From a virus: 27,167 nt of DNA. Both the position numbers and the translations under genes were made by a program. Where the stretch lies: positions 1 through 27,167 of IMG/VR virus record IMGVR_UViG_3300007229_000062. One strand, written 5' to 3'. How positions within the stretch are numbered: the stretch's first letter is position 1; the number at the start of each line of letters is the position of its first letter. This document shows positions 1,972-25,700 of this stretch, in pieces. Below the pieces are notes generated by a model, which saw nothing but the letters and a program-made list of their open reading frames with translations, made no database searches and was not told where the DNA came from.

Positions 1972-1999
1972 ATTATAAAGCAAAAAATAGATCTGTCAA
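1972..1999 (-). promoter_or_regulatory. Consensus sigma70 promoter (TTGACA-16-TATAAT)
   Basis: On the minus strand TTGACA (1999-1994) and TATAAT (1977-1972) are both perfect and 16 nt apart. The ATG at 1965 begins 7 nt after the -10 box, so the expected transcript begins at the start codon. Likely an early promoter used by the host RNA polymerase. Confidence 0.85.
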
Positions 2000-2010
2000 C
2001 TGTAAATATT

Positions 2011-2592
2011 TTAGTTATTATAAAGGATTTTAGTAAGTGAACCGGCAGTTTGGGATGAAAATTTGGCTCGAACAAACACAAAATTTCCTGTAAAGTTTAC
2101 AGGACTAACTGTAGTACTCTGGTCGGTAGTAAATGTTGTATTAGCAATATCAAAGTAATCATCTTCTGTGGGTGTGGTTGCCAATGTACCTTGCATTTTA
2201 ACATTACCTGTACAAGTTGAATTTACATGATACGCAACTGTGTGAATGCCATCTGCTTGTGAATAGTACCCATCACCTTTAAATTTTTCTGTTACAAATC
2301 CTGAATATGTTAAAACTGTGTCTGTAGAACCATCCGAACTTTCTGCTGTGACTGTTTCTTCTACAGTGATAAAAGTTCCGTTTGCATCTACACTTTTTAT
2401 TGTAAATGTGGAATTGTTGTTTGAAGTTCCTGTGATAGTGACTAAATTTCTTACTTCTAGATTGGCAAGGCTTGTGCTGGCCGCCGCAATTTTATTAACT
2501 CCTGCGGTAGCTGTAAAAGTACAACCTTCAGTGACATTAACTGCCGATTTGAAAGTCTTTTGACCTGATATTGTTGAACTTGATTGTGCCAT
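2011..2592 (-). CDS. Virion structural protein, beta-rich, 193 aa
   Basis: The protein is rich in Thr, Ser, Val and Gly with low charge. Its C-terminus (VSPVNFTGNFVFVRAKFSS...LTKILYNN) resembles beta-sandwich ends of phage tail and decoration proteins. The central TFTIKSVDANGTFITVEE segment looks like a repeated-strand beta domain. I infer a tail, baseplate or decoration component; the exact position in the particle cannot be told. It is preceded by an AATAAATA late motif 7 nt from the ATG and no Shine-Dalgarno sequence, which fits a late gene and separates it from the early-type DnaJ operon upstream. Confidence 0.65.
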   Translation of the reverse strand: MAQSSSTISGQKTFKSAVNVTEGCTFTATAGVNKIAAASTSLANLEVRNLVTITGTSNNNSTFTIKSVDANGTFITVEETVTAESSDGSTDTVLTYSGFVTEKFKGDGYYSQADGIHTVAYHVNSTCTGNVKMQGTLATTPTEDDYFDIANTTFTTDQSTTVSPVNFTGNFVFVRAKFSSQTAGSLTKILYNN

Positions 2593-2599
2593 ACGTTGT

Positions 2600-2607
2600 T
2601 ATTTATT
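2600..2607 (-). promoter_or_regulatory. T4-type late promoter, AATAAATA
   Basis: The octamer includes the TAA stop of the upstream 101-aa gene (2605-2603). There are 7 nt between it and the ATG at 2592, giving a predicted leader of only a few nt. Confidence 0.65.
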
Positions 2608-2908
2608 GTTCTTTGCGTCTCTTGAATCGTTCAGTTTTTGGTGTTAATCCATACACAGCGGCAAGTTCAATTGGTTCCATGCCATCTACTATCTGTATTG
2701 AATCATACATTATTTTTCTCATAGGCACATTGGCTTCTATAGCATATTCTTCATCGGCAAAACAATGATCATCTGCCAACTCTTTTACTCTTAGCACTGC
2801 TTGTTTCTTCATTGGAGACCCCATGAATGATTTGGTTATTTCTGCTTCGATTAGTGTTTGTTCTTTAAATATTTTTTTGTCTTTAAGTTTTTGTATTATT
2901 TCTTTCAT
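2603..2908 (-). CDS. Unknown protein, 101 aa
   Basis: This is a charged, lysine/glutamate-rich protein beginning with a predicted amphipathic helix (MKEIIQKLKDKKIF) and ending in a very basic tail (ERFKRRKEQ). No family recognised. The ATG at 2908 follows the TAG stop of the 210-aa gene with no gap, and AGAAAGG lies upstream, so it is the last gene of the proteostasis operon. The basic tail could contact nucleic acid; this is only a guess. Confidence 0.65.
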   Translation of the reverse strand: MKEIIQKLKDKKIFKEQTLIEAEITKSFMGSPMKKQAVLRVKELADDHCFADEEYAIEANVPMRKIMYDSIQIVDGMEPIELAAVYGLTPKTERFKRRKEQ

Positions 2909-3541
2909 CTATACCTTTCTAAATTGCACTACTCGATCTATAATATGATTAGAAATCATGTAGATTGGGGTTAATGCTTTTTGATCTATTACGTAGAAGT
3001 AGCCGTTGAAGTCGTAGTGTATGGCACCTTTACCTGACAACCATTGACCTAAATTTTTAGTAGTCACTATGGCATTGTCTTTGTTTTGTGTCAAGTATTG
3101 ATTCAGTAATTCTTTTTGTTGTTTAGTAATATTATAAGGCATTTTCTTTTGTACATGCACTTGATATTGATATTTGCCCAATGGCAATCTGCTACATAGG
3201 ACTGTGTCCTGGTCCAACATGTCTGTATTGTTAGGGTCTGTAGTGGTTACACCTACCCAGTATTGCCAAAATTGATCAATTAACTTTAAAATTAGCTCTT
3301 TAGGACCATAGAAAATTGAATTGAGATGCTGTATTCTAAATTTTATTTCATCCCTATGAGCTAAAATAAATTTAGATATCTTGCTTAAATTTTGATTTGC
3401 TTTTTTATTTCCTTCTGTCAGTTCAATTATTGTTGACAGATGTGCTTGTGTCGTTGGATATAACATATTTGTGCCAGGTATCTTAAAAATAGCTTTGTAA
3501 CTATACTTGCCAAAGAATAGTTTATTATGATGTTTTCTCAT
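2909..3541 (-). CDS. Unknown basic protein, 210 aa
   Basis: The protein is basic and aromatic-rich throughout. Recognisable local features are KYQYQVHVQKKM in the middle and a GYFYVIDQKALTPIYMIS segment near the C-terminus, suggesting an alpha/beta soluble protein. I recognise no catalytic motif and cannot name a function. Its ATG at 3541 overlaps the end of the ClpA-like gene by 17 nt, so translation is likely coupled to that of the unfoldase. Being tied to ClpA it could be an adaptor or substrate, but nothing in the sequence proves this. Confidence 0.65.
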   Translation of the reverse strand: MRKHHNKLFFGKYSYKAIFKIPGTNMLYPTTQAHLSTIIELTEGNKKANQNLSKISKFILAHRDEIKFRIQHLNSIFYGPKELILKLIDQFWQYWVGVTTTDPNNTDMLDQDTVLCSRLPLGKYQYQVHVQKKMPYNITKQQKELLNQYLTQNKDNAIVTTKNLGQWLSGKGAIHYDFNGYFYVIDQKALTPIYMISNHIIDRVVQFRKV

Positions 3542-5831
3542 CTATCTTCAAAGGTTTTACTTTCTCTTCAACAATATTTTTTTTATATTCGATAGACAGT
3601 TCTTTGTCTTTAATTGTAACATCCACTCTTCCACCGTTATGCAATTCACCAAATAGCATCATTCGAGAAAGTGGTTTCTTGATCTCATTGTCTATAATTC
3701 TATTCAACGGACGAGCACCCATTTTAGAATCAAATCCTTTTTTAATTAAGTAATCTATAGCTTCGTCTGTGGCATTAACTTCAACACCTTTTTCTACAGT
3801 CATTGCATTCAATTCCAGTAAGAACTTTTTTACAATTTTTTTCATTGTATCTTTGCCCAATTTGGCAAACTTAACCATTGCATCTAATCTGTTTCGGAAT
3901 TCAGGTGGAAAGAACCTTTTCATTGCATCTTCATCTTCAGTCCTTTGTGGGTCACCAAATCCTAATGTGGCTTTCTCCATTTCTTCAGCACCTAAATTTG
4001 AAGTCAAAATAAGGGTAATGTTTCGGCAATCTGCCTTCTTACCATTAGATCCGGTCACTGTACCATAATCCATAACCTGTAACAACATATTGGATACGTC
4101 TCGGTGAGCTTTTTCTACTTCGTCAAACAGTACCACTGCGTGTGGATTTTTTTCTACTTCGTTAATGAACATACCGCCACCCATGTTTGAATCTTCATAT
4201 CCCACATAGCCCGGAGGTGAGCCAATTAATTTAGCAATTGAATGTTTTTCTTGATACTCTGACATGTCAAATCTTAACAGTTCAACACCTAGTGTTTTAG
4301 CTAGTTGACGAGCAGTTTCAGTTTTACCGCAACCAGTAGGTCCTAAAAACAAGAATGAACCAACAGGTTTGTTCACGGTTTTTAATCCTGCTCTAGATAC
4401 AAGTATCTTATCAATCACAGTGTTCAGTGCTTTGTCTTGGCCAAACACTTGCAATTTCATTTTTTCTTCAAGAGTTTTTAGATTAGATGCTTGTTTCTGT
4501 GACAACTGTTCAATAGATATACCAGTTATTTTACTCACTTCGTGAATAATTTCCTCATGATCAATCTTGCCATCTTTAACGCCTTTTAATCTCAGTCGGG
4601 CACATGCAGAATCTAATATATCAATTGCCTTGTCTGGTAATTTTTTATCTGCTATAAACTTACTAGAGTATTCAACTGCATCTTCACAGGCCTCGTCTGT
4701 GATAGAACAACTGTGAAACTTTTCATAATACTGTTTAACACCTTTGATAATTTTGACACAGGTTTCGTTGGTAGGTTCACCAACCTGTACTCTTTGGAAT
4801 CTACGCATAAGAGCCCGGTCCTTCTCAAAAAATTTCCTATATTCTTCCCAAGTGGTTGAGGCAATAACTTTTAATGCTCCTTTAGTCAACACAGGTTTAA
4901 TCATCTGTGCAAGGTCTACTCCGCCTTGTCCTGTAGATCCTGCTCCTACCATCATGTGTGCTTCGTCTACAAATAGTATAGCTTTGCCTTTTTTCTCTAA
5001 AGCACTTAAAATTAATTTCAATCTTTCTTCGAAATCACCTCGGAATTTGGAACCTGCTATCATGCCTGATATATCCAAACTGTACACAATGTGATCTTTT
5101 AAATATTCTGGTATGTCATCTTTATTTTTAGCAATTCTTCGAGCAAGTCCTTCTACCACGGCAGTTTTACCCACACCTGGATCACCTACTAACAGTACGT
5201 TACTTTTATTTCTTCTTGCTAAAGTTTGTTTAACAATATCTAGCTCTTCTTCTCTGCCAATCACAGGATCAATTTTTTTATCAAAGTATTTTTGGTTTAA
5301 GTTTTCTGTGTAATGTTTTAGTATCTTATCTGCTTGATCCGGTCTCAGTTTTTGTTCAGCTCCTGGCCCAGCAAATCCTGAGTCATCAATTATAGTTTCA
5401 GCAGAAACCATATCTGTGATATCATCTTTGTTTACATTAAATTTTTTCAATAAGAAAGCAGAGTAACTTCTTTTTTCAGCAAATATACTTAAAAGTATAT
5501 CCATGGGTGTTAGATCCTGCCTACCTTGGAACAGGGCTTGTGTAAATGCTCTATTCATTAATCTTTCTAATGATGCTGTTTTTCTTGGTACTACTGGTTT
5601 AGTAGGATCTTTTACCACAATATCCTTTACTTCATTGTCTAGATACCCTTCTAACTCTTTAATTAGAGAAGCTACATTTACTTTGAAATCTACCAGTATT
5701 GCTCCGATACCTGCGTCCTTGATCAAAGACAGGAACAAGTGTTCTATGGTTACGTATTCATGTTTTCTCTTTTCAGCTTCTTTAACTGATTGTTCAAATA
5801 TGTGCTCTAGATCGTCATTGGATTCTATCAT
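3525..5831 (-). CDS. clpA: ClpA-like AAA+ unfoldase, 768 aa
   Basis: All parts of a ClpA/Hsp100 protein are present. A Clp N-domain with KHEYVTIEHLFLSLI occupies about residues 1-140. The first AAA+ module has Walker A GDPGVGKT (216-223) and Walker B ILFVDEA (285-291). The second has Walker A GPTGCGKT (497-504), Walker B VVLFDE (566-571), the pore-like GYVG segment, and RNRLD with the arginine finger. A TLGFG segment at about 622-626 aligns with the ClpP-docking loop (IGL/IGF). It should unfold proteins and feed them to a ClpP peptidase; no clpP lies in the window, so host ClpP is the likely partner. I start at ATG 5831, which overlaps the deformylase stop as ATGA, because this matches the ClpA N-terminus; the longer version adds 11 residues. 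Length is close to the usual ~750 aa. Confidence 0.93.
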   Translation of the reverse strand: MIESNDDLEHIFEQSVKEAEKRKHEYVTIEHLFLSLIKDAGIGAILVDFKVNVASLIKELEGYLDNEVKDIVVKDPTKPVVPRKTASLERLMNRAFTQALFQGRQDLTPMDILLSIFAEKRSYSAFLLKKFNVNKDDITDMVSAETIIDDSGFAGPGAEQKLRPDQADKILKHYTENLNQKYFDKKIDPVIGREEELDIVKQTLARRNKSNVLLVGDPGVGKTAVVEGLARRIAKNKDDIPEYLKDHIVYSLDISGMIAGSKFRGDFEERLKLILSALEKKGKAILFVDEAHMMVGAGSTGQGGVDLAQMIKPVLTKGALKVIASTTWEEYRKFFEKDRALMRRFQRVQVGEPTNETCVKIIKGVKQYYEKFHSCSITDEACEDAVEYSSKFIADKKLPDKAIDILDSACARLRLKGVKDGKIDHEEIIHEVSKITGISIEQLSQKQASNLKTLEEKMKLQVFGQDKALNTVIDKILVSRAGLKTVNKPVGSFLFLGPTGCGKTETARQLAKTLGVELLRFDMSEYQEKHSIAKLIGSPPGYVGYEDSNMGGGMFINEVEKNPHAVVLFDEVEKAHRDVSNMLLQVMDYGTVTGSNGKKADCRNITLILTSNLGAEEMEKATLGFGDPQRTEDEDAMKRFFPPEFRNRLDAMVKFAKLGKDTMKKIVKKFLLELNAMTVEKGVEVNATDEAIDYLIKKGFDSKMGARPLNRIIDNEIKKPLSRMMLFGELHNGGRVDVTIKDKELSIEYKKNIVEEKVKPLKIDEKTS

Positions 5832-6334
5832 GTTTTCATTGCTTTCTTTTTTGCCATGTCCCATCTCATCTTTGAGACACGTTTGTTAAAATTAATTCCG
5901 TCTAAGTGATCTAGTTCATGTTGAAAGCACTTGCTTTCCATTCCGTCTAGATGTTGTACTAATTTTTCATTATTCATATTTTGCCAAGTTACTGTTACTT
6001 TTTTTGGTCGTTTTACTTGTACCCAAATGTCTGGAAAACTTAAACAACCTTCCAAATCAAGTACAGTTTCTTCCGAACTACGAACTATCTTTGGATTCCA
6101 TATTATAACAGGTTTTGAGAATACGTCAAATGATTCATGACCGATACAAAAAAAACGTTTGTTAATACCAATTTGATTGGCGGCCAAACCAATTCCTTTG
6201 GATGCTATCATGAGATTAATCATGTCAGTTTGAAATTTTTCTAGGTCGTTGTAACCAGGTACCCCTTTTTCAAAATCAAAAGGTGTGCTTTTGGTGTTTA
6301 AACATTTTGTTGGCCATGTGTAAATTTGTAACAT
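5828..6334 (-). CDS. def: Peptide deformylase, 168 aa
   Basis: The enzyme removes the formyl group from the N-terminal methionine of nascent proteins at the ribosome exit. All three signature motifs are intact: GIGLAANQ (47-54), EGCLS (95-99, metal-binding Cys97) and HELDH (139-143, metal-binding histidines and catalytic Glu140). The protein has the size of bacterial PDFs but lacks a long C-terminal helix extension, as is usual for marine phage PDFs. I choose ATG 6334 over the TTG at 6358: the ATG follows the TAA of the 41-aa gene by 1 nt and gives a normal N-terminus. The stop overlaps the ClpA-like start (ATGA). Co-expression with DnaJ and ClpA suggests a phage protein-quality module. Confidence 0.95.
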   Translation of the reverse strand: MLQIYTWPTKCLNTKSTPFDFEKGVPGYNDLEKFQTDMINLMIASKGIGLAANQIGINKRFFCIGHESFDVFSKPVIIWNPKIVRSSEETVLDLEGCLSFPDIWVQVKRPKKVTVTWQNMNNEKLVQHLDGMESKCFQHELDHLDGINFNKRVSKMRWDMAKKKAMKT

Positions 6335-6335
6335 A

Positions 6336-6461
6336 TTATAATATATAAGCCAATACAAGCCAGATTACAAGAGCCCAGCATAATCCTGCAATAATTGGGT
6401 CATCTAACCAACCGTCTATCATGCTCCAAAACAATCCAATTATTTCTTTTATTGTTGGCAT
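6336..6461 (-). CDS. 41-aa single-span membrane peptide
   Basis: A short open frame fills the gap between the DnaJ-like and deformylase genes. It starts MPTIKEIIGLFWSM, continues with a DGWLDDP turn, and ends in a hydrophobic span of about 19 residues (IIAGLCWALVIWLVLAYIL). The ATG at 6461 overlaps the DnaJ-like stop as TAATG, with AAGGA about 7 nt upstream. The stop lies 1 nt before the deformylase ATG. The precise fit between two coupled genes and the clean Shine-Dalgarno sequence argue that it is real. It would insert in the inner membrane with a very short C-terminus; its function is unknown. Confidence 0.75.
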   Translation of the reverse strand: MPTIKEIIGLFWSMIDGWLDDPIIAGLCWALVIWLVLAYIL

Positions 6462-7297
6462 TATAAGTCCTTTATTTTATTTAATTGTCTTTCGTTTAAT
6501 TTAGGAATTGTAACATGCACTTTAATATACATATTTCCTCTAATATTTAATTTTTCGTGTACTGGCATTCCTTTACTTTTTAATTGCAACACACTGCCTG
6601 GTTGTGTGCCAGCTGGTGCTCGTACATTAACTATGTTGTCCTCAAGATCACGGATAGTGAATTCACAACCTCTCATCGCTTCAAAGGCAGTAATAGTACG
6701 GTCGCTCCAAAGGTCACTACCTTTCCTTGTAAATCCATCAGAATCTAACACAATTACTTTGACTAATAAATTACCTCTAGGCACACCTGCATCTGAATCA
6801 TCACCTATGCTGTTATAACGGAATGTTACGCCATTCTGCACTCCGGCTGGGATCTTAATTTCTACAATTTCATCTCGGCCCGATGGCAATTTAAAACTTA
6901 AAGTTCTTTTACTAGCTTTCATTATTTCTTTAATGCTCAATGAAAGATTCATTCTTATATCTCTGTTTTGTCTTTTCCTATGTCTCTGTCTAAATCCACG
7001 ACCACCTATGCCTGACATAAACTCATCAAAGAAGTCACCACTTACAAATTCATCAAAGTGTCCGCCATATGACTGTCCGCCCGCACCCATACTGGCACCA
7101 TATTTTTTCATGGTGTCATACTCTTGTCTTTTATTTTTATTTTTAAGGGTATCGTATGCTTCGTTGGCTTCTTTAAATGTAGCTTCGTTTCCACCCCTGT
7201 CTGGGTGTTCTTTCTTGGCTATGTTCTTGAACGCTTTCTTTATCTGTTCATCTGATGAACCTTCACCTACACCTAGAATCTTGTAATAATCTTTCAT
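6461..7297 (-). CDS. DnaJ-like (J-domain) co-chaperone, 278 aa
   Basis: A full J domain occupies residues about 3-65 (YYKILGVGEGSSDEQIKKAF, HPD at 32-34, then EANEAYDTL). It is followed by a Gly/Phe-rich linker and the two-lobed C-terminal substrate-binding domain (IPAGVQNGVTFRYNS; VRAPAGTQPGSVLQLKSKGMP). The zinc-finger domain of classical DnaJ is missing and only one cysteine is present, so it is of the CbpA/type II kind. It should stimulate the ATPase of host DnaK and deliver clients. A near-consensus sigma70 promoter lies 7 nt before the ATG with no Shine-Dalgarno sequence, marking this as the early-type first gene of the operon 7297-2603. Confidence 0.95.
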   Translation of the reverse strand: MKDYYKILGVGEGSSDEQIKKAFKNIAKKEHPDRGGNEATFKEANEAYDTLKNKNKRQEYDTMKKYGASMGAGGQSYGGHFDEFVSGDFFDEFMSGIGGRGFRQRHRKRQNRDIRMNLSLSIKEIMKASKRTLSFKLPSGRDEIVEIKIPAGVQNGVTFRYNSIGDDSDAGVPRGNLLVKVIVLDSDGFTRKGSDLWSDRTITAFEAMRGCEFTIRDLEDNIVNVRAPAGTQPGSVLQLKSKGMPVHEKLNIRGNMYIKVHVTIPKLNERQLNKIKDL

Positions 7298-7304
7298 TAG
7301 CTAT

Positions 7305-7332
7305 ATTGTATGACAGATTTACTATTTGTCAA
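7305..7332 (-). promoter_or_regulatory. Sigma70-type promoter (TTGACA-16-TACAAT)
   Basis: On the minus strand TTGACA is at 7332-7327 and TACAAT at 7310-7305, 16 nt apart, one mismatch in total. The ATG of the DnaJ-like gene begins 8 nt after the -10 box, so the transcript should be leaderless or nearly so. Confidence 0.85.
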
Positions 7333-7342
7333 TGGTTGGTAA

Positions 7343-7663
7343 TTATTTCTTGATGTTTGTTTTTTTGCCGTTTACGTAAAGGCCAAACCAGGCCGCACCT
7401 GCACCAACAACAACTGAAACAAATCCAGCCTGTGCGTTGTTTGGTTCTGGTAGAGCCATGAACCATTGCATTGTGTTGTAGAATACTAGACCATACAATC
7501 CCATCATGATTCTTGGAACTGTTCTCCAGTTGGATAAAAACTGTGGTAATTCGTCTCTCAAAAACAGCCAAATGATTTTTATAAGTTCCCAACCATCCTT
7601 GGCACTTTTCTTTACGACGTTTTCGTTCTTGACGATCAGTTTATCTTCGTTTAGCTGAACCAT
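7343..7663 (-). CDS. Holin-like membrane protein, 106 aa
   Basis: The N-terminal 50 residues are charged and helical. Two hydrophobic segments follow (about IMMGLYGLVFYNTMQWFMAL and AGFVSVVVGAGAAWFGLYV), separated by a PEPNNAQ turn, and the tail is basic (NGKKTNIKK). The turn and the VVGAGAAWFGLY segment resemble holin-like proteins seen in lysis cassettes of marine phages. Location at the end of a cassette with an endolysin and spanins supports a membrane-permeabilising role. The ATG at 7663 overlaps the upstream TAA (TAATG); a longer reading from 7741 lies entirely inside the previous gene and is unlikely. Holin identity is inference. Confidence 0.7.
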   Translation of the reverse strand: MVQLNEDKLIVKNENVVKKSAKDGWELIKIIWLFLRDELPQFLSNWRTVPRIMMGLYGLVFYNTMQWFMALPEPNNAQAGFVSVVVGAGAAWFGLYVNGKKTNIKK

Positions 7664-8253
7664 TATTTTAAACCTTTGATCTTGGCGTTTCTTTTTCTGT
7701 GACCGTTCCATGCAACAAAGCCACCTACTCTTAATGACCAATATGCAAGTCTGTTCATTGTGTAGAATCCGTTTACAATTATGTTAATGTCTCTGAATAT
7801 TTCATCTGCTCTTTTTTGTGTAAGTTCACCCATTGTGTCTTTTTTATTTGTCTTAAGGAGTGTTTTGTATTTGTATGCGTAGTCATGAACAAGTCCGCCC
7901 ATTAACAATACACCAACCGGTGAAAAGAAAGATCTTAAAAATTTTGGAATACTTGCTCCGTCAAATTGGAAACCTGCTGGTATCACATACTCCGTGCCAT
8001 CGATGTTGTACTTCCAGTCATCTGTTAGCACCCAGTTTCTTGTTGACAATAACCACATAACAATACCTTTCCAGAAGCCTTTACCTTTTGTTTTGATCGG
8101 TACAGGTTGTAACTTAGGCATTCCCTTGTAGTAAAATTTTAATTTTGTTGTTGCTCTTTTGTCTGTAAAATTTATAATTGCGGCAATTATTACAACAGCG
8201 ATTAATACTGTCCATTGCCAAAATTTCATTGCTAGTGCTACTATCATTTCCAT
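7663..8253 (-). CDS. DUF1353-family protein with N-terminal membrane anchor, 196 aa
   Basis: An N-terminal hydrophobic segment (about residues 10-30, WTVLIAVVIIAAIINF) is followed by a soluble domain with VIPAGFQFDGASIP and GLVHDYAYKYKTL. These are the conserved parts of DUF1353, a family common in tailed phages near lysis genes and of unproven function. The conserved His-Asp pair suggests a metal- or catalytic site. The anchor would place the domain at the membrane. The late motif at 8278-8285 and a GGAG Shine-Dalgarno sequence about 10 nt before the ATG make it one of the few leadered late genes here. Confidence 0.8.
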   Translation of the reverse strand: MEMIVALAMKFWQWTVLIAVVIIAAIINFTDKRATTKLKFYYKGMPKLQPVPIKTKGKGFWKGIVMWLLSTRNWVLTDDWKYNIDGTEYVIPAGFQFDGASIPKFLRSFFSPVGVLLMGGLVHDYAYKYKTLLKTNKKDTMGELTQKRADEIFRDINIIVNGFYTMNRLAYWSLRVGGFVAWNGHRKRNAKIKGLK

Positions 8254-13610: not shown

Positions 13611-13648
13611 TCCCCGGCAGTTTAGTCATTCCCCGGCAGTTTAGTCAT
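13607..13648. repeat. 19-bp tandem duplication at a gene junction
   Basis: The unit tcattccccggcagtttag occurs at 13607-13625 and 13626-13644, followed by another tcat. It covers the stop of the GroES-like gene and the start of the zinc-ribbon gene. Confidence 0.92.
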
Positions 13649-14068
13649 CTGTCGAGCACCGCCCATGTTGATATAGCCGGCTTTCAAGTTTACTTCGTCT
13701 ATAGGTTCTTCGTCTGACACTAAAAGTATATCATTTTCGTCTATCATTCTTACTTCTAGTTCTGTATTTTCTTTTACAACTTTAAATGCTCTTGACCATC
13801 TACCGTGTGCTACCATGACCCACTGTCCAACTTTTACATCTTCTTGTTGGCTACCAATAGCATAAACTTCTGCCCACCTAGGATGAATACCGTGTTCTGA
13901 GCCGTCATCATCTGGCATTATGATTCCACCTTTGGTTTTAATTTCACCAAATTTCATTTTGCTTACTAAAACTCTTTTCTTAAGTGGAGTTATATCGTTA
14001 TCAACAGTGTACTGTTTTCCACCATCTGATCCAAAACCTTTTGCTTGTAAATCTTCTATTTGTCCCAT
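13622..14068 (-). CDS. GroES-type co-chaperonin (functional analogue of T4 gp31), 148 aa
   Basis: The central domain (about residues 25-115) follows the GroES layout. DITPLKKRVLVSKM opens it, a KTKGGIIMPDDDGSEHG stretch resembles the mobile loop whose hydrophobic tripeptide docks on GroEL, then comes AEVYAIG and a closing VKVGQWVMVAHG. T4 gp31 replaces GroES to fold the capsid protein, so this protein likely serves host GroEL during capsid production. It carries a 24-residue N-terminal addition and a C-terminal extension of about 30 residues beyond the fold. A perfect TTGACA-17-TATAAT promoter ends 7 nt before the ATG and no Shine-Dalgarno sequence is present. Confidence 0.88.
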   Translation of the reverse strand: MGQIEDLQAKGFGSDGGKQYTVDNDITPLKKRVLVSKMKFGEIKTKGGIIMPDDDGSEHGIHPRWAEVYAIGSQQEDVKVGQWVMVAHGRWSRAFKVVKENTELEVRMIDENDILLVSDEEPIDEVNLKAGYINMGGARQMTKLPGND

Positions 14069-14501: not shown

Positions 14502-15023
14502 TCATCTCAAAAATTCACGATAATCTAAATTGTACAGTAGTGGATTAATTTTGTGTATGCCTATCAGAAACAGACAAAAACTGCTCACAGATGATCCTCT
14601 ACCCACTCCCCATACAATGTTGTTCTGCCTTAGAGTATCCACGAAATAGATCAGGAACTGTAATACTTTGGTAAACCCTTTTTGTTCAAATAGGATATAT
14701 TCTGCTTCCACTCGCTCACGCTCTTGATCAGTTCCACATTTATCCAACAGATATTTTTTTACGTCAGTCTTTGTGTAGGATTCTGGCATGTGCCACTGTG
14801 CATAATTGTCACAATCAAAGTCAACTACAGATTGTGATCTTTGCACGTGTTCTGGCAACTGTGGCAAGTCTATTTCTAACTCTTTCAGTGCTTGATTGTA
14901 TTGTTTTGCCTGTGTGGGTATTTTGGAGATGTCTAATTCAGGATTTTGATACAGTAAATTAATTACAGCATCTTCGCTGTAGACACAATCACCATAATCA
15001 TTAATTTTTATTTTTTCCGCCAT
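14502..15023 (-). CDS. Truncated DnaE-like protein (Pol III alpha fragment), 173 aa
   Basis: Residues about 105-173 align by eye with the PHP-to-palm junction of bacterial Pol III alpha (DnaE). Both read: a FLIYFVDTLRQNNIVWG segment, the phosphate-binding GVGRGSSVSSF (139-149), then LIGIHKINPLLYNLDYREFL. In DnaE the catalytic PD(x)D(x)DF motif follows a few residues later; here the gene stops after EFLR. So the protein cannot polymerise by itself. A proper stop and a Shine-Dalgarno sequence for the next gene follow, so this is not a sequencing cut. The 214-aa gene upstream overlaps it by 23 nt. Role unknown; it might bind a nucleotide, template or clamp partner. Confidence 0.8.
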   Translation of the reverse strand: MAEKIKINDYGDCVYSEDAVINLLYQNPELDISKIPTQAKQYNQALKELEIDLPQLPEHVQRSQSVVDFDCDNYAQWHMPESYTKTDVKKYLLDKCGTDQERERVEAEYILFEQKGFTKVLQFLIYFVDTLRQNNIVWGVGRGSSVSSFCLFLIGIHKINPLLYNLDYREFLR

Positions 15024-15645
15024 CTATAATTTTTGGGTTGAACTCAAATATTTTAGCATGTTCATGGTGCTGTTGGTCAACCGAATCTGTAATTGCTTCA
15101 TGGTTGTGCCAACGATAGTGTCCTGTGTATATGCCTTTGTCCAATATTTTATCATAAGTTGCTGTGTCAGATCTCAACCACCATGGATCAAACTTATTAT
15201 ACTGCGTTGTAAACCAATTGTCAATGTCTAACAGTTGTATCTCAGGACCTTCTTTCAGTATTCTGTAGGTAATACCATCTCCTTGATAACTGCTTAACTC
15301 CAATTCATTGATAATAATTTTACCCTGTAATATAGCATTGGCCTTGGTAAAACACACTGCCGCCATGAGTTGATCATAAGGTTGTCTTGGTAATTGAATA
15401 AATCTATTGCTGGTTTGTTTTTCTAAGATTTTGTAAAGTTTTGCATCGCGACAGACGGTAATTGTGTTGTTAAAAATATGTTCAAACAACATTTTCAATC
15501 TTTCAAAAAAATCTCCCTGTTCTTTTAGATCTGCTGTGACTGGAGTGAGGTGTAATTTTATAGTGTAGTCGTTGTTGAACAGTTCATCGTCAACAACAAT
15601 GATAGATTTAAATCCGGTGCTCCAACTGAAATATTTTTTTGACAC
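15001..15645 (-). CDS. Conserved phage protein, 214 aa, unknown function
   Basis: An alpha/beta protein with FFERLKMLFEHIFNNTI, a QPYDQLMAAVCFTKANAILQGKIIINEL segment and a histidine-rich region near the C-terminus (HYRWHNHEAI, QQHHEHAKIF). The QPYDQL...AILxGxxxI arrangement recalls hypothetical proteins that sit beside the DnaE-like gene in other marine T4-like phages. It starts with GTG at 15645; no in-frame ATG exists upstream. AGTAAATA, a weak late-type motif, lies 5 nt before it. The coding sequence holds a perfect sigma70 promoter (15196-15224) that could transcribe the overlapping DnaE-like gene. Confidence 0.75.
   Translation of the reverse strand: MSKKYFSWSTGFKSIIVVDDELFNNDYTIKLHLTPVTADLKEQGDFFERLKMLFEHIFNNTITVCRDAKLYKILEKQTSNRFIQLPRQPYDQLMAAVCFTKANAILQGKIIINELELSSYQGDGITYRILKEGPEIQLLDIDNWFTTQYNKFDPWWLRSDTATYDKILDKGIYTGHYRWHNHEAITDSVDQQHHEHAKIFEFNPKIIDGGKNKN
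15196..15224 (-). promoter_or_regulatory. Internal perfect sigma70 promoter (TTGACA-17-TATAAT)
   Basis: On the minus strand TTGACA (15224-15219) and TATAAT (15201-15196) lie 17 nt apart inside the 214-aa gene. The nearest downstream gene start is that of the DnaE-like gene at 15023, about 165 nt from the predicted transcription start. It may be functional or a coincidence of codons. Confidence 0.55.
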
Positions 15646-18909: not shown

Positions 18910-20841
18910 TTAACTTACTGCCGCTGTAAATGGTGTTGCTGGGTTGGCACCTGCCGCCACCCTCATAACACCTCTTACGTGATATTGGTTGGTCGCGATG
19001 TCAATCAGCTCAAGATAATCACCAACAATACCGCCGGTAGTACCACCGTTGAGTGTGATTGTGTCCGAAGCCGCCACTGTTGGGAAGGCTGTAACTGCTG
19101 TTCCGTCTTCATCTAGATAGATCATGATTCCATCGATAGTGTCTGTTGCATCTGCCACCTGTATCTTGTAGTTTGATGTGTTTGTAACACTCACGATAAA
19201 TTTGTATACTGCGCCTGTGCCAGTAGCCGCTGGTAGCGTTAAAGTCACTGCCGCGTCACCACCAACTTCACCAAGCAGTAAAGTTCTGCCGGCGTGTTCT
19301 GCTATTGTGACTGCGTCAGTTGCCACGAACGTGTGTATTGCTGGCAGGAATGATCCTTCCAGTGTAAGCTGTGAAGGTATTGAAACTACACCAGTACCCT
19401 GTGTGCTGATAGTTAAATTCGAGTTACTAGTGATACCTCTGAGGTTGTTAGTATCGACACTACCACTTGCACTGACTTCAATGTCTGTGGCTGATAGTGT
19501 ATTTGTTATACCTACAAAAGTTCCGTTAATGGTAACTGTACCAGTACCATTTGGTGTTAATGCAATACCACCATTTGTGTTGGTTGCCGAAATAATGTTG
19601 GCATCTGCTCTAAGGTTGTCCACATTTAATTGTCCAGTGACTGTTGCTGTACCTACTATGTTAGTTGCTCCTGTTAAATTAATTGCACCTGTTCCAGCTG
19701 GATCAATGTCTACGTTTCCGTTGGTGTCTGTTGTTATTCTGCCATCATCTTCTATGTTTAAATCACCAACATTAAAAGTTCCTGTCGTTAATGATCCTGA
19801 AACAGTTGTGTTACCTGTGGTAACCACATCTGCTGTGTTTGTTGTTCCTGCCACAGTCACTGCACCTGACACTGTTGCTGTGCCGTCAACTACCAACCCT
19901 TCGTTGATGTTGATAGTGCTTGAATCTGTTGCAGTTAAAGTTGTGCCACTTAATGATAAACCACCCAAAACCAGTGCACCTGTGCCACCTGGAATTATAC
20001 TGATAGGTGCGTTGGTATCTGATGTTATATTGCTGTCCGTGATGTTTAAATTATCTATTTGCACTGTACCTGTTAGTGTGCTTGTGCCAGTAATGGCTAA
20101 ATTGCCACTGCCAGTTACGTTGCCAGTGACTGCAAGAGTAGAAGCCATTGTAACTGCTCCTGATACTGTTGCTGTGCCATCAACTATCAATGCTTCGTTG
20201 ATGTTGATTGCCGCTGAGTCATCTGATGTGATGGTTGTTCCGTGAATTCTAACTGCACCTGCGACCACATCTCCTGTGCCACTTGCTGACAGTACCAAAT
20301 CTGAATTTGTTACTGTGGCTTGTATTTCATTGTCTTCGATAGAGATAGATGAAGTTGCTGTGCCTACTACAATGCTGGGCACTGTGGTTGCACTCGATAA
20401 AACAATGGAACCTGTACCATTCGGTGTCACTGTAATATTGGTGTTGGTTACTAATCCTGTTATAGTTGTGCCGTTAAATTCTAAACCATCAACTTCCAGT
20501 TTTCCAGTAACCTGTGTAATATCTGTGTCATCGTTGCCTAGGAAAATTGTTCCGGAAACACTTAAATCGCCAGTAACATTTGTATTGGCTTCAAGTTCTA
20601 CTGTGCCAGTGCCGGCTGGAATAATTCTGATGTTTTCATTTGTTCTTGCTGATACAATGTTAAATCCGTTTATGTCTAGATCTCCACCCAGTTGAGGACT
20701 TACGTCGTCTATGATACTGTCATCAGCTGACGTACCATACAACTCCGTAAAATTGTCGTTAATTTTGTCGAATGCTGTTCTTAACGGATCACCGGTGCCG
20801 TCGTTAGCTAAAGTACCTATGTTGATTGCTTGTTTTGCCAT
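18910..20841 (-). CDS. Repeat-built tail fibre-like protein, 643 aa
   Basis: The N-terminus has NIGTLANDGTGDPLRTAF, a docking motif found at the start of several marine T4-like tail proteins. The body is a beta-helix-like series of NSDLVLSASGTGDVV, GTTITSDDS and LVVDGTATVSGAV repeats. The last 150 residues form a separate domain (LLLGEVGGDAAVTLTLPA, YLDEDGTAVTAFPTV) that I know as an exchangeable C-terminal module in marine phages. Its DNA is GC-richer than the flanks (33 of 60 bases at 19021-19080), a sign of transfer. GATAAATA lies 7 nt before the ATG. Confidence 0.85.
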   Translation of the reverse strand: MAKQAINIGTLANDGTGDPLRTAFDKINDNFTELYGTSADDSIIDDVSPQLGGDLDINGFNIVSARTNENIRIIPAGTGTVELEANTNVTGDLSVSGTIFLGNDDTDITQVTGKLEVDGLEFNGTTITGLVTNTNITVTPNGTGSIVLSSATTVPSIVVGTATSSISIEDNEIQATVTNSDLVLSASGTGDVVAGAVRIHGTTITSDDSAAININEALIVDGTATVSGAVTMASTLAVTGNVTGSGNLAITGTSTLTGTVQIDNLNITDSNITSDTNAPISIIPGGTGALVLGGLSLSGTTLTATDSSTININEGLVVDGTATVSGAVTVAGTTNTADVVTTGNTTVSGSLTTGTFNVGDLNIEDDGRITTDTNGNVDIDPAGTGAINLTGATNIVGTATVTGQLNVDNLRADANIISATNTNGGIALTPNGTGTVTINGTFVGITNTLSATDIEVSASGSVDTNNLRGITSNSNLTISTQGTGVVSIPSQLTLEGSFLPAIHTFVATDAVTIAEHAGRTLLLGEVGGDAAVTLTLPAATGTGAVYKFIVSVTNTSNYKIQVADATDTIDGIMIYLDEDGTAVTAFPTVAASDTITLNGGTTGGIVGDYLELIDIATNQYHVRGVMRVAAGANPATPFTAAVS

Positions 20842-20848
20842 TTGCTAT

Positions 20849-20856
20849 TATTTATC
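20849..20856 (-). promoter_or_regulatory. T4-type late promoter, GATAAATA
   Basis: There are 7 nt between the motif and the ATG at 20841, so the leader should be very short. A second, weaker TATAAATT lies at 20861-20868. Confidence 0.6.
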
Positions 20857-20884
20857 CAAGAATTTATAAACCCATTGTAAAGTT

Positions 20885-22768
20885 TTATACGTCAAAGGCG
20901 ATCCTTTGAAATTTAAACACACAGGCGTCACTGGTGATGTTGCTGGCAATTAGTCTTACATCATCGCCATTTACATCAACGCTGAGACTGGCCAACGGAG
21001 CTGTGTAATTTGTGGTAGAACCAAAAGAAACAATATATGCAGTAGTTCCGTCATGAGTGACATTGGCTTCAGTGTATTCAAATCTGGTGTCTGCGGCATT
21101 AGAAATGGAAATAAAGTATTTGGCACTTCTGTACACTGTTTTATCAAAGGTGTTGACCACCGATGCGGCAGAGCTTGATATTGTGGTTGTAGCATCAGCG
21201 ATATCTGAATGACTTAGAGACACACCAGCTGAGGCGAAAGATAACACACCTAATCCGTTGGTACTAAGAAACTGTCCACTGGAACCGTCAGTGGTTGGGA
21301 AAGTAAATCCACTCAGGCTCACTCCACCAGTTCCATTACCGGTTAATTCTAAAGTAGAATTTGAGGCATTGGTTGATACAGTGTTGTCTGCAATGGTTAC
21401 ACCGTCTATGATCACCGAAGCTGTAGTGGATAAAGTAGTGAAGGTACCAGCAACAGCAGTGCCGCCACCAATTACGGTGCCGTCAATGGTTCCGCCATTG
21501 ATGTCTAGATCACCTGTTACCTTGACAGACCCTGTGCCACTTGCTGATAATACCAAATCCGAATTTGATTGTGTGCTTGATATCACGTTGTCTGCAATTG
21601 ATATACTTGAATCGATAGTCAGTGGTTCGTTGATCTGTATTGCCGATGAGTCATCTGATGTGATGGTAGTTCCACTTATTCTCAGAGCACCTGCGAGTAC
21701 ACCTCCTGTGCCACTGGCCAAAAGAACTAGATCTGAATTTGTTTGTGTCGCTTGTATTTCGTTGTCTGTGATAGATATGTTTGAATCTATAGTAACTGCC
21801 TCATTGATCTGTATTGCTGTCGAGTCATCTGATGTAACGGTTGTTCCGTGTATCCTGATGGCGCCGGCGACCACATCTCCTGTGCCACTTGCTGACAGTA
21901 CCAAATCTGAATTTGATGCCGTGGCTTGTATTTCGTTGTCCGTGATAGAGATATTTGAATCTATAGTCAGTGCTTCATTGATCTGTATTGCCGATGAGTC
22001 ATCTGATGTAACGGTAGTTCCACTTATTCTTAGAGCACCCACAACCACATCTCCTGTGCCACTGGCTAACAGAAATAGGTCTGAATTTGTTGCTGTGGTT
22101 TGTATTGCGTTGTCTGTGATATTAATATTTGAATCTATGGTTAGATTGTCTATAACCACTGTACCAGTTCCGCCTGGTGACAGTATAATATCTGAATTTG
22201 ATGCTGAACTAATAATGTTATCATTAAGGGTTAAATTGTCTATCCCTACTGGGCCGGCTAAAGTAGTTGCACCGGTCACAGATAAACTGGAAAGAGTAGT
22301 TAATCCACTGGCAACGTCTAGAGTAGACGACATGGTAACAGCACCTGACAGAGTAGATGCTCCGGAAACATTTAAAGTGCCGTCAACAATCAATCCATCG
22401 TTGATATTAATAATGCTTGAATCAGCAGATGATAGTGTTGTACCGCTGATACTAATAGCTCCAAAAATTACCGATCCCGTACCTGCAGGAAGTAAATTAA
22501 TATTTTCATTGGTTCTAGTACCTTCAATATTGTTGTCATTTATTCTGATAGCAGGAAATGATACACCACCTGTGCCAGCTGGACTAAGGACTAGATCATC
22601 GTTGGTTCGTGTTGCGGCAATTTCATTGCCAGTAATGCTAATAAAACTGCTGAGCTGTGCCGAATCATATATTTCAGTGAAATTGGTATTCACTTTAATC
22701 ATCGCCGCTCGAAGTGTATCGCCATCTCCTCCGTTTGCTGTTCCTATGTTTAATACTAGTTGTGTCAT
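20885..22768 (-). CDS. Tail fibre-like protein with 58-aa repeats, 627 aa
   Basis: The N-terminus (LVLNIGTANGGDGDTLRAAM ... NTNFTEIYD) is the same docking motif as in the 643-aa protein. The middle has at least three tandem 58-residue repeats (DNEIQATASNSDLVLSASGT and so on), conserved at the DNA level with a 174-bp period. The last 95 residues hold one copy of the FDKTVYRSAKYFISI domain that recurs ten times in the next protein upstream. It is probably a fibre or baseplate-attached adhesin. The ATG follows the upstream TAA by 1 nt. Confidence 0.85.
   Translation of the reverse strand: MTQLVLNIGTANGGDGDTLRAAMIKVNTNFTEIYDSAQLSSFISITGNEIAATRTNDDLVLSPAGTGGVSFPAIRINDNNIEGTRTNENINLLPAGTGSVIFGAISISGTTLSSADSSIININDGLIVDGTLNVSGASTLSGAVTMSSTLDVASGLTTLSSLSVTGATTLAGPVGIDNLTLNDNIISSASNSDIILSPGGTGTVVIDNLTIDSNINITDNAIQTTATNSDLFLLASGTGDVVVGALRISGTTVTSDDSSAIQINEALTIDSNISITDNEIQATASNSDLVLSASGTGDVVAGAIRIHGTTVTSDDSTAIQINEAVTIDSNISITDNEIQATQTNSDLVLLASGTGGVLAGALRISGTTITSDDSSAIQINEPLTIDSSISIADNVISSTQSNSDLVLSASGTGSVKVTGDLDINGGTIDGTVIGGGTAVAGTFTTLSTTASVIIDGVTIADNTVSTNASNSTLELTGNGTGGVSLSGFTFPTTDGSSGQFLSTNGLGVLSFASAGVSLSHSDIADATTTISSSAASVVNTFDKTVYRSAKYFISISNAADTRFEYTEANVTHDGTTAYIVSFGSTTNYTAPLASLSVDVNGDDVRLIASNITSDACVFKFQRIAFDV
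21560..22140. repeat. 174-bp (58-aa) tandem repeats in a fibre gene
   Basis: The sequence gagtcatctgatg recurs at 21648, 21822 and 21996, each 174 bp apart. The encoded units share DNEIQA and SGTGDV and differ at a few positions. Confidence 0.9.
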
Positions 22769-22769
22769 A

Positions 22770-25700
22770 TTATACGTTTATAAGTCTTTTAACCGCGGTG
22801 ATCACATGATCATTTGTATTACTTATTGCACCAAGCAGTCTTACGTTCCCACTATCTATATCCGCAGTAAGAGTGAAAAGATCTGATGGAGTACTGTTTC
22901 CTATTCTAGCTCCCTCACTGATAAAAGCAGTTGTTCCATCGTGCATCACAGTTACATCAAAAATTTCAAAATTGCCTCCGACAGAGTCACTTGCCTGAAC
23001 AGTATATTTTGCACCTCGGAATGAAGACACACTGAAAGAATCCAACACTTGCTGTGAAGAAGCACTTCCAGCCCCTCTAGCTAAATTGATTCTATAAGCA
23101 TTTACAGTGAATGAACTTGTTCCATCTGCCGCTAATGCTCTTATTTCTGCTGTGGATCCTGTGTTGCCTGCTGTATAGTTTACTAAACTACTACCAGTTG
23201 AAGAAACAATAGGATCGCTGTTTATAAAAGTGTCACTGCCATTTGTTACTGCTTGTATTTCTGAAATTTGACTGTCAGCGGCCCCTACTTTTTTGGCAAC
23301 CACAACATAATAAGCACCATTGTAAGTGCCACTTACGAAACTATCAATAGTTGTTGTCGATGTTGCCTCTGGTCGCAACATATGAATTCTATATGCATTG
23401 ACCGTTGTTGAGCCTCCACTTGTTGAAGATGCACTTATTGTTACAGTTGATGAACCGTTGTGTGCCGCTGTTAAAAATATTTGTCCTGTGCCTTTCGTGC
23501 TGACCTCAGGACCTTGTGCCACACTGGCATCTACGCCATCTGTGACAACTGTAAATTCTGATATACTAGCCGCTCCCTCTGTGGAATTGTTTGCAACCAT
23601 GACATAATGAGCACCTGTGTGTTGCGTGTCTTCAAATGTGTCTATGTCTGTGGCGGCACTTGCAACTGTGACTGCCCCGATAGTGTTTGCGTCCGTGCCT
23701 GTGGCATCACTTTCATTGTCTGCCAATCTAATTCTATAAAATTTTATTCTTATATCTCCACTTTGTGGTGTGGCATCAATTGAAACAGTTGAACCGCTGA
23801 GAGTTGCTGTAAGAGTCACAAGTCTGCTGTTTGAAAAATGTTCATTGGACACAGTTATAAATGCTTCACTGCCGTTGTGTACAACCAGTGCTTCAATGTT
23901 ACTGACGTTTCCATTGTCAGTGTCCTCCGCACTGATGTAATACTTGGCACCTCTGTAACTGGCATGAGCCCAACTGTCCATGGTTTTAGCGGATGTTGCA
24001 GGTGCTTTTAATCTTACTGCATAGGCACTCACTGCTGTTGAAGCACCTGACGTTGAACTTGCTTTGACACTGACAGTGCCTGCCGAAATAGTAGCAGTAA
24101 GTTCCAACATGTCTGTGCCTTTGGTGCTGACATTGGGACCTTGGGCTATAAAAACTCCTGTGCCATCTGTTACCACAGTGGCCTCACAAATAAATTTCTC
24201 ATTGGCACCGTTCTGTCCACACACCACATAATGTACAGCATCAGTGTCACTGGATTGGAAAGTGTCAAAGGTTGTTGCCGAGCTTGATGCAGTGACGTTT
24301 CCAATCACCTTCCTTGTGCTGTCAGTGGTTGCCTCGTCTGATTCTGTGTCCGCGAATGCCACTATCCTGTTGACAATGACCTTTGTGCTGGCACCTGACG
24401 TGGCAGAACCTCTCAACCTAACACTGGTGCCACTTATGTCCGCTGTCAGTGTGATGAGGCTGTTGTTGCCTGAGAAGTGCTCGTTGTATGACGTTATGTA
24501 AGCATTTGTGTTGTCGTGCGTGACCAGTGCTTCTATGTTGCTGGTTTCGCCTGTTGATTGATTCCTTACATTTATGAAATATTTTGCCGCGGCGTGTGGA
24601 GCCTTTGTAAATGCATCAAGGTTAACAACACTGCTACCTATTATATCAACATGCATGATGTCATGAACTAGTCCTAGTTCTCCAATGTAGCCTGTGGAGT
24701 CATCGGTTCCGATTCCTATCCTGTAGTAAGCCATTGTGTTTGATGGTGTGACGGATGAACCATCACCGTCTGTCATTCTTAATCTTATTTTGGATGCACT
24801 GTCATCCGCTGTCACCATGTCCGCATCAAACGTTGGATGGGTGTCACCCACATCTGATCTAGTCACTGCTGATGATGTAATGAAAGCGTTATTGAAATTG
24901 TGTAGCACAGAAACTTTCTGTGTCTCGAAACTGCCGTTGGCCACGTCCTTGGTCACGATATGATACAATGCACCGTTGAATTGACTAGCAGTAAATTCTG
25001 CACCTGTTCTTGCTTCAGCTAAACTGCCCTGTGTTGTGCCTTCGGCAATTACATGGTCTATCTGTGTTTCGTTGTTTCCTCCTAGAATGATACCTGCTTC
25101 TGTGCCTATGTTTCCAGATGTGGCATCTGCTGTGTTTGATCCAAGTCCTAGTGCATAATAGGTCATACTGTTACTAATCGTTGTTGATCCATCACTGACT
25201 CCTGTGGTTCTTAATCTTACATTGGACCCATCAATGTCAACATCATGACTCATCACATCATTGTGGACTCCACTTTTAACCACACTTGAACTTGTGATAA
25301 AAGCGTCTTGGGTGCTTCCGTCTGTGGTTGTTCCATGCATGACCGATAATTTTTCCATGTTGAATTCACCATTAGTTTGATCTCTGTTTATCAGGTGATA
25401 CCAAACACTATCAAAATCTGTTGTGGCAAAAGTGCTGGCTGTCTTTGTGCTACTGAAATCTGGTTTGGCAGTGCCTCTAAAACTGTTTGTGTCAATTGTT
25501 GTTTGTGATATGGTGCTGACTGTGGTTGCTCCTACCACATTGACATTGGTTCCTGTTGATGAGCTTTCGTCGTCTGCCAGTAAAATTCTATACATGTGTA
25601 CTCTTAAATTTGGAGTGTTACCTGAAGCTCTAAGTCGCACATTATTGCTGTCAATGTCAGCTGTGATTGTTAGAAGATCATTGTTGCCGGTATTCACAAT

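Follow-up and report, generated by a model that had tools for sequence, protein, structure and literature searches.

An order-conserved phage gene module links dnaJ to clpA and couples clpA to a neighbouring gene, u210

Published accounts treat phage genes for ClpA, DnaJ and peptide deformylase as auxiliary genes that occur scattered and whose roles are a matter of guesswork. A genome fragment of 27,167 bases from the record of an uncultivated aquatic virus, referred to here in its entirety as the window, raises the question of whether such genes can act together, and if so on what. A reading made from the sequence alone had described six open reading frames in the window, from dnaJ to a 101-aa gene, as one coupled proteostasis operon whose components were each known singly in phages. 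All six frames are open and lie on the minus strand (Table 1), and the single genes are indeed on record (PMC6102473, PMC7824862, PMC7029224, PMC12619734).

Table 1. Features of the dnaJ-s193 region of the window and its flanking promoters.
Feature	Coordinates	Strand	Description
dnaJ	6461..7297	(-)	class-B zinc-free J-protein, 278 aa, HPD intact; Pfam PF00226 6e-19, PF01556 2e-31
membrane peptide	6336..6461	(-)	41 aa, one-pass, Shine-Dalgarno-like AAGGA; accessory
pdf	5828..6334	(-)	peptide deformylase, 168 aa; PF01327 1.9e-43; TIGR00079 above cut-off
clpA	3525..5831	(-)	ClpA-type double-AAA+ unfoldase, 768 aa; phrog_4871 3e-247; TIGR02639 870 bits
u210	2909..3541	(-)	210 aa, no family match; predicted ferredoxin-like alpha/beta fold; obligate clpA neighbour
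u101	2603..2908	(-)	101 aa, no family match; predicted SH3/Tudor-like small barrel
s193	2011..2592	(-)	virion-type protein, 193 aa, phrog_13657/14467 domain; seventh gene of probable unit
operon promoter	7305..7332	(-)	TTGACA-16-TACAAT, 11/12 consensus match, upstream of dnaJ
next promoter	1972..1999	(-)	TTGACA-16-TATAAT, 12/12; starts following unit

The junctions between the six genes are those that the sequence-only reading had listed: dnaJ and the 41-aa frame meet in TAATG at 6461, a 1-nt gap separates the latter from pdf, the pdf stop at 5828 overlaps the clpA start as ATGA, clpA and u210 overlap by 17 nt (3541-3525), and the gap between u210 and u101 is zero. Two of these junctions follow from the start codons chosen, namely ATG 6334 for pdf, the most likely start, and likewise ATG 5831 for clpA; the alignments of clpA relatives begin at that residue. 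The operon had been taken to end at the 101-aa gene; this overlooked the conserved virion-type gene s193, which lies 10 nt beyond u101 with no promoter between them, the next strong promoter being the one at 1999-1972. s193 probably belongs to the same transcription unit, and from this layout we infer that the genes from dnaJ to s193 are co-transcribed.

The promoter upstream of dnaJ is a strong one of the sigma-70 type and looks like a promoter for host RNA polymerase. Its geometry is present in 17/17 marine relatives (score of at least 10 of 12, reached by 2.6% of shuffles), with the spacer fixed at 16 nt throughout, and this, together with a gene order kept in dozens of phages, places the operon far beyond chance. 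In the window 7 nt separate the end of the -10 element from the dnaJ ATG; the distance is 6-8 nt in 15/17 of the marine relatives and 11 nt in 2/17, so that the dnaJ mRNA is predicted to be leaderless or nearly so. Promoters of this geometry also stand before the GroES-like gene, the clamp loader and numerous genes of the relative G010. The label 'early-type' that had been given to the promoter is drawn from its class, and a search for the late-promoter string TATAAATA over the 70 bp before dnaJ gave no match. Two further candidate elements were rejected: an internal promoter inside pdf (6129-6102), which is a single consensus match with none at the same place in G010, and a conserved palindromic operator within the spacer of the dnaJ promoter, where arms of at least 6 occur in only 4/17 relatives (4.7% of shuffles).

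Promoters of the form TTGACA-16/17-TATAAT with the -10 ending 5-8 nt before an ATG are numerous (window 14104, 13367, 7332 and 1999; L310-L318), and leaderless mRNAs are accordingly predicted to be widespread in this phage group. One 12/12 promoter belongs to a further chaperone gene of the window, which encodes a GroES/gp31-like co-chaperonin (13622-14068). Among freshwater relatives (L027, L042, L048, L065, L075) the dnaJ promoter lies inside a terminator-like hairpin, GGCTCC...GGAGCC-TTTTT, an element that may both terminate transcription from upstream and initiate that of the operon.

Conservation of the arrangement was surveyed by IMG/VR scans with ClpA and DnaJ and by an iterative HMM survey, which together gave 75 non-redundant clpA loci. 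The order dnaJ-(pdf)-clpA-(u210)-(u101)-s193 is repeated in dozens of phages only distantly related to one another. dnaJ lies upstream of clpA in 60/60 loci where the contig reaches far enough, u210 follows clpA in 67/74 testable non-redundant loci, and pdf is found in 55/69, u101 in 25/74 and s193 in 39/69. Absence of the arrangement from close relatives was looked for and did not occur. Reverse scans started from clade-level alignments of u210 and of u101, whose wide alignments were too divergent to be used, run against any bias of the clpA-started scan; some contigs recur between scans, and all counts are of loci and not of independent events. The module and the coupling of clpA to u210 are firmly established by these observations. 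The idea of a coupled proteostasis set holds insofar as the set is conserved and the catalytic motifs are intact in each of its enzymes. It is not an all-or-none set: roughly one locus in five has no pdf, and a few have no u210.

The module extends to cultured jumbo phages, in which dnaJ-(pdf)-clpA-virion protein is the common core. Sinorhizobium phage Phosso (PV764938) has dnaJ-pdf-clpA-u101-...-s193 and Agrobacterium phage Atu_ph07 (MF403008) dnaJ-clpA-u101-s193, in both cases in the same orientation as in the window and just after the Rz/Rz1 spanin genes. These two phages differ from the window in lacking u210 and, in Atu_ph07, also pdf, and their genomes of 469-490 kb encode their own ClpP and ClpS. 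Pseudomonas phage PA5oct resembles the window in its core, dnaJ-clpA followed by an s193-type structural protein, and in two upstream virion genes of families that the window likewise has upstream (12075-10875); unlike the window, it lacks pdf, u210 and u101 and has a short J-protein of 229 aa. The comparison would suit an ancestral unit of J-protein, ClpA and virion protein, to which pdf, u210 and u101 may have been later or lineage-specific additions. ClpAs of the RaK2/121Q/GAP32-type jumbo phages belong to the same ClpA family (about 36-40% identical) and differ in setting, their genes standing solo between tail or structural genes with no adjacent dnaJ and with an altered docking tripeptide.

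Earlier accounts describe parts of this arrangement. ClpA and DnaJ of Atu_ph07 are numbered gp292 and gp293 (PMC6102473) and deformylase and DnaJ of AP-J-162 gp154 and gp155 (PMC11242549), and the accessible text of neither paper presents them as a single module. Moraphages have ClpA in their core and commonly DnaJ (PMC12619734), and pelagimyophages have deformylase in theirs (PMC7029224), with neither the coupled cluster nor u210 reported in the accessible parts of these two papers. Within the open literature, subscription papers and supplements aside, the operon as a coupled unit and the family of u210 appear to be new; the single genes were known.

The J-protein of the window consists of a J-domain with HPD and a DnaJ_C domain, with no zinc finger, as in class-B proteins. 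Against class-A DnaJ (TIGR02349) it scores 184 bits where the cut-off is 377, the CxxCxGxG repeats are absent, and it falls under the equivalog cut-offs of both DnaJ and CbpA. HPD is present in every clpA-linked J-protein except those truncated at a contig end, and the zinc finger in 0/86 of them, compared with 53/60 other phage J-proteins. The deformylase retains GIGLAANQ, EGCLS and HELDH in the window, where it scores 133 bits against a TIGR00079 cut-off of 104, and its motifs are likewise intact in the survey. The 41-aa membrane peptide had been counted as a component of the module and proved to be peculiar to the window, with no counterpart among the relatives; we rejected it as a core part. 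Insertions recur in the interval from dnaJ to pdf, a hotspot which holds this peptide in the window, a DUF1289-like frame in L010-L012 and an alternative-oxidase-like frame in L017, the latter two names having been assigned by eye. The frame at 4905-5516 of L017, the closest long relative, has di-iron motifs read by eye and no NCBIfam match.

The window ClpA has two AAA+ modules with Walker A and B motifs, arginine fingers and pore loops, carries LGF as its ClpP-docking tripeptide and lacks the ClpB middle domain. Its match to TIGR02639 (ClpA) is a single unbroken alignment, whereas the ClpB match is split; its score lies below the curated TIGR02639 cut-off of 993, and it is therefore filed as ClpA-type rather than as a cellular equivalog. 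[ILV]GF occupies the docking position in 76/76 surveyed phage ClpAs and in the cellular control, whereas five solo phage ClpAs with no dnaJ beside them have LGM, IGY, IGV, IGM and MGM there. With so small a solo set, made up largely of close relatives, the contrast between a docking tripeptide kept in dnaJ-linked ClpAs and one altered in solo ClpAs is suggestive. The dnaJ-linked phage ClpA would, on the strength of this motif, dock ClpP. A ClpP is encoded in 9/31 records, including both rhizobial phages and large freshwater or jumbo contigs, and the Ser and His motifs (MGQ.CSMGS, MIHQPSGG) are present in the canonical ClpPs read. ClpS is encoded in 5/31 records and DnaK in 2/31, and ClpP, ClpS and DnaK each occur among the larger relatives. 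In these possibly incomplete records, neither ClpP nor DnaK was found in G010, the closest long marine relative (172 kb).

These data bear on whether the phage ClpA serves degradation at all. A ClpA that acted independently of ClpP, serving virion assembly as a remodeller or translocase and fed by DnaJ/DnaK, would fit the structural-gene context of clpA and the position of the solo jumbo-phage ClpAs, with their altered tripeptides, next to tail genes, and such a role has been suggested for jumbo-phage ClpA/ClpX (PMC7824862). We consider it quite improbable for the dnaJ-linked proteins, in which the docking tripeptide is conserved throughout and many of whose relatives encode a ClpP of their own.

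A second proteostasis cluster, clpX-bS21-hsp20-clpS, was observed in G010 (L326, G010:C1:42500-46000), and clpS-hsp20-dnaK with bS21 nearby in two larger relatives (L319, L320); bS21, Hsp20 and ClpX were recognised by eye in these genomes.

The 210-aa and 101-aa proteins had been proposed as candidate adaptors, and they fare differently. In the scan started from u210, this gene lies directly 3' of clpA with overlapping frames in 118/118 loci (two clades, of 80 and 38 loci), the overlap commonly being 11, 17 or 20 nt, which makes u210 a very good candidate for a ClpA partner. Its predicted fold (mean pLDDT 89.6) is read as an alpha/beta order of two ferredoxin-like halves. u101, predicted as a small SH3/Tudor-like barrel with flanking helices (mean pLDDT 86.0), follows u210 in 43/43 loci in the scan started from u101 and is a weaker candidate: it turns up in the marine clade and in a handful of others, and the rhizobial jumbo phages have it without u210, so that it need not be a ClpA adaptor. 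Neither protein has a recurrent match across its members in Pfam, PHROG, NCBIfam, PADLOC or PDB sequences. In Foldseek searches of the PDB neither model had a hit below E 0.001, and VIA-align Z values of at most 5.9 (u210) and 7.0 (u101) reflect common arrangements with no function-telling match. The possibility that either is a ClpS adaptor (PF02617) was discarded, there being no Pfam match and ClpS being a separate gene in relatives. Neither the patterns used on 84,980 prokaryote species genomes nor tblastn against 50,697 phage records found u210. The correlated divergence of u210 and ClpA is explained by shared descent (partial correlations weak, 0.08-0.30); co-evolution with any one domain of ClpA is inseparable from it and was also rejected as a line of evidence.

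The constancy of the clpA-u210 junction also bears on whether the genes are coupled in function. They may have stayed together simply because this stretch rarely recombines, with nothing beyond the use of each gene, and in keeping with this the order of the flanks is also conserved in the marine clade (the gene at 7663-8253, a 132-aa gene and s193) and the unit holds other cargo, such as the alternative-oxidase-like and DUF1289-like frames and the 41-aa peptide. Such passive synteny is unlikely, in our view, to account for an overlapping adjacency that is invariant while pdf, u101 and the flanks vary, for a dnaJ-clpA pair that persists in marine, freshwater and soil or clinical jumbo phages with differing neighbours, or for linked J-proteins that are all zinc-free where other phage J-proteins mostly are not. 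Judged by its genomic position, u210 would bind ClpA as a dedicated adaptor or regulator. That it is the first of a family of Clp adaptors or regulators confined to viruses, programming the phage ClpA to direct ClpP at substrates of the phage's choosing, is possible, if on balance doubtful.

The last gene of the unit points to what those substrates might be. s193 falls in phrog_13657/14467, of which phrog_14467 is named virion structural, and its homologue in PA5oct is annotated as structural by ESI-MS/MS; the presence of a conserved virion-protein gene downstream shifts the likely purpose of the unit to virion-protein quality control. The reading we favour, tentatively and at a little less than even confidence, is that of a phage-owned ClpA(P) quality-control arm in which u210 is a dedicated ClpA partner and virion proteins are the likeliest clients. 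The class-B J-protein would recruit host DnaK, or phage DnaK in the largest relatives, to new and misfolding proteins, and the deformylase would keep pace with N-terminal processing during the translation burst. The ClpA-type unfoldase would dock ClpP (the host's in the marine lineage, the phage's in larger relatives) and with it destroy proteins that cannot fold, with u210 attached to ClpA as its own adaptor or regulator. Virion proteins are put forward as the main clients because the ancient core of dnaJ, clpA and virion protein lies inside a structural and lysis region; as a counterpoint, the sigma-70-type promoter is common to the GroES-like and clamp-loader genes, and the structural context could be a matter of location. 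Such a set would work like the bacterial ClpS-ClpAP and DnaK-DnaJ systems, with a docking-loop unfoldase, an HPD J-protein and, in relatives, ClpS, and would differ from them in that u210 and u101 are not ClpS and the J-protein is zinc-free. We know of no bacterial operon in which clp and dnaJ genes stand together with deformylase.

The main rival to quality control, ahead of passive synteny, is host takeover or counter-defence. A ClpA steered by u210, and elsewhere by phage ClpS, would, early in infection, turn host ClpP on selected proteins of the host or of its defences, while DnaJ would divert or disarm host DnaK-dependent sensing. A host-type sigma-70 promoter, like those at other phage genes of probable early or middle class, agrees with this, as does the fact that jumbo relatives and the closest long relative encode ClpS; control of host ClpAP by a ClpS of phage origin has been proposed (PMC7824862), and DnaJ is reported to take part in phage sensing by bNACHT25 (PMC12169576). 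We nonetheless think it rather unlikely, since in three phage groups distant from each other the core has structural and lysis genes around it and a virion protein as its last member, and since u210 and u101 have no defence-family match. An order-conserved operon with a strictly coupled ClpA partner turns separate puzzles into one testable system, of which the cultured relatives PA5oct, Atu_ph07 and Phosso carry the core, and a natural contrast exists between dnaJ-linked ClpAs with the ClpP-docking tripeptide and the solo ones examined, which are without it.

Two other regions of the window are of note. At 14502-15645 a short DNA-polymerase-III-alpha-like fragment (phrog_11127) adjoins a gene for a 214-aa unknown protein, which is unexpected near a T4-type clamp loader, and at 18910-27167 there are long fibre-like proteins (643, 627 and >1465 aa) that are rich in repeats, their units being nearly identical.
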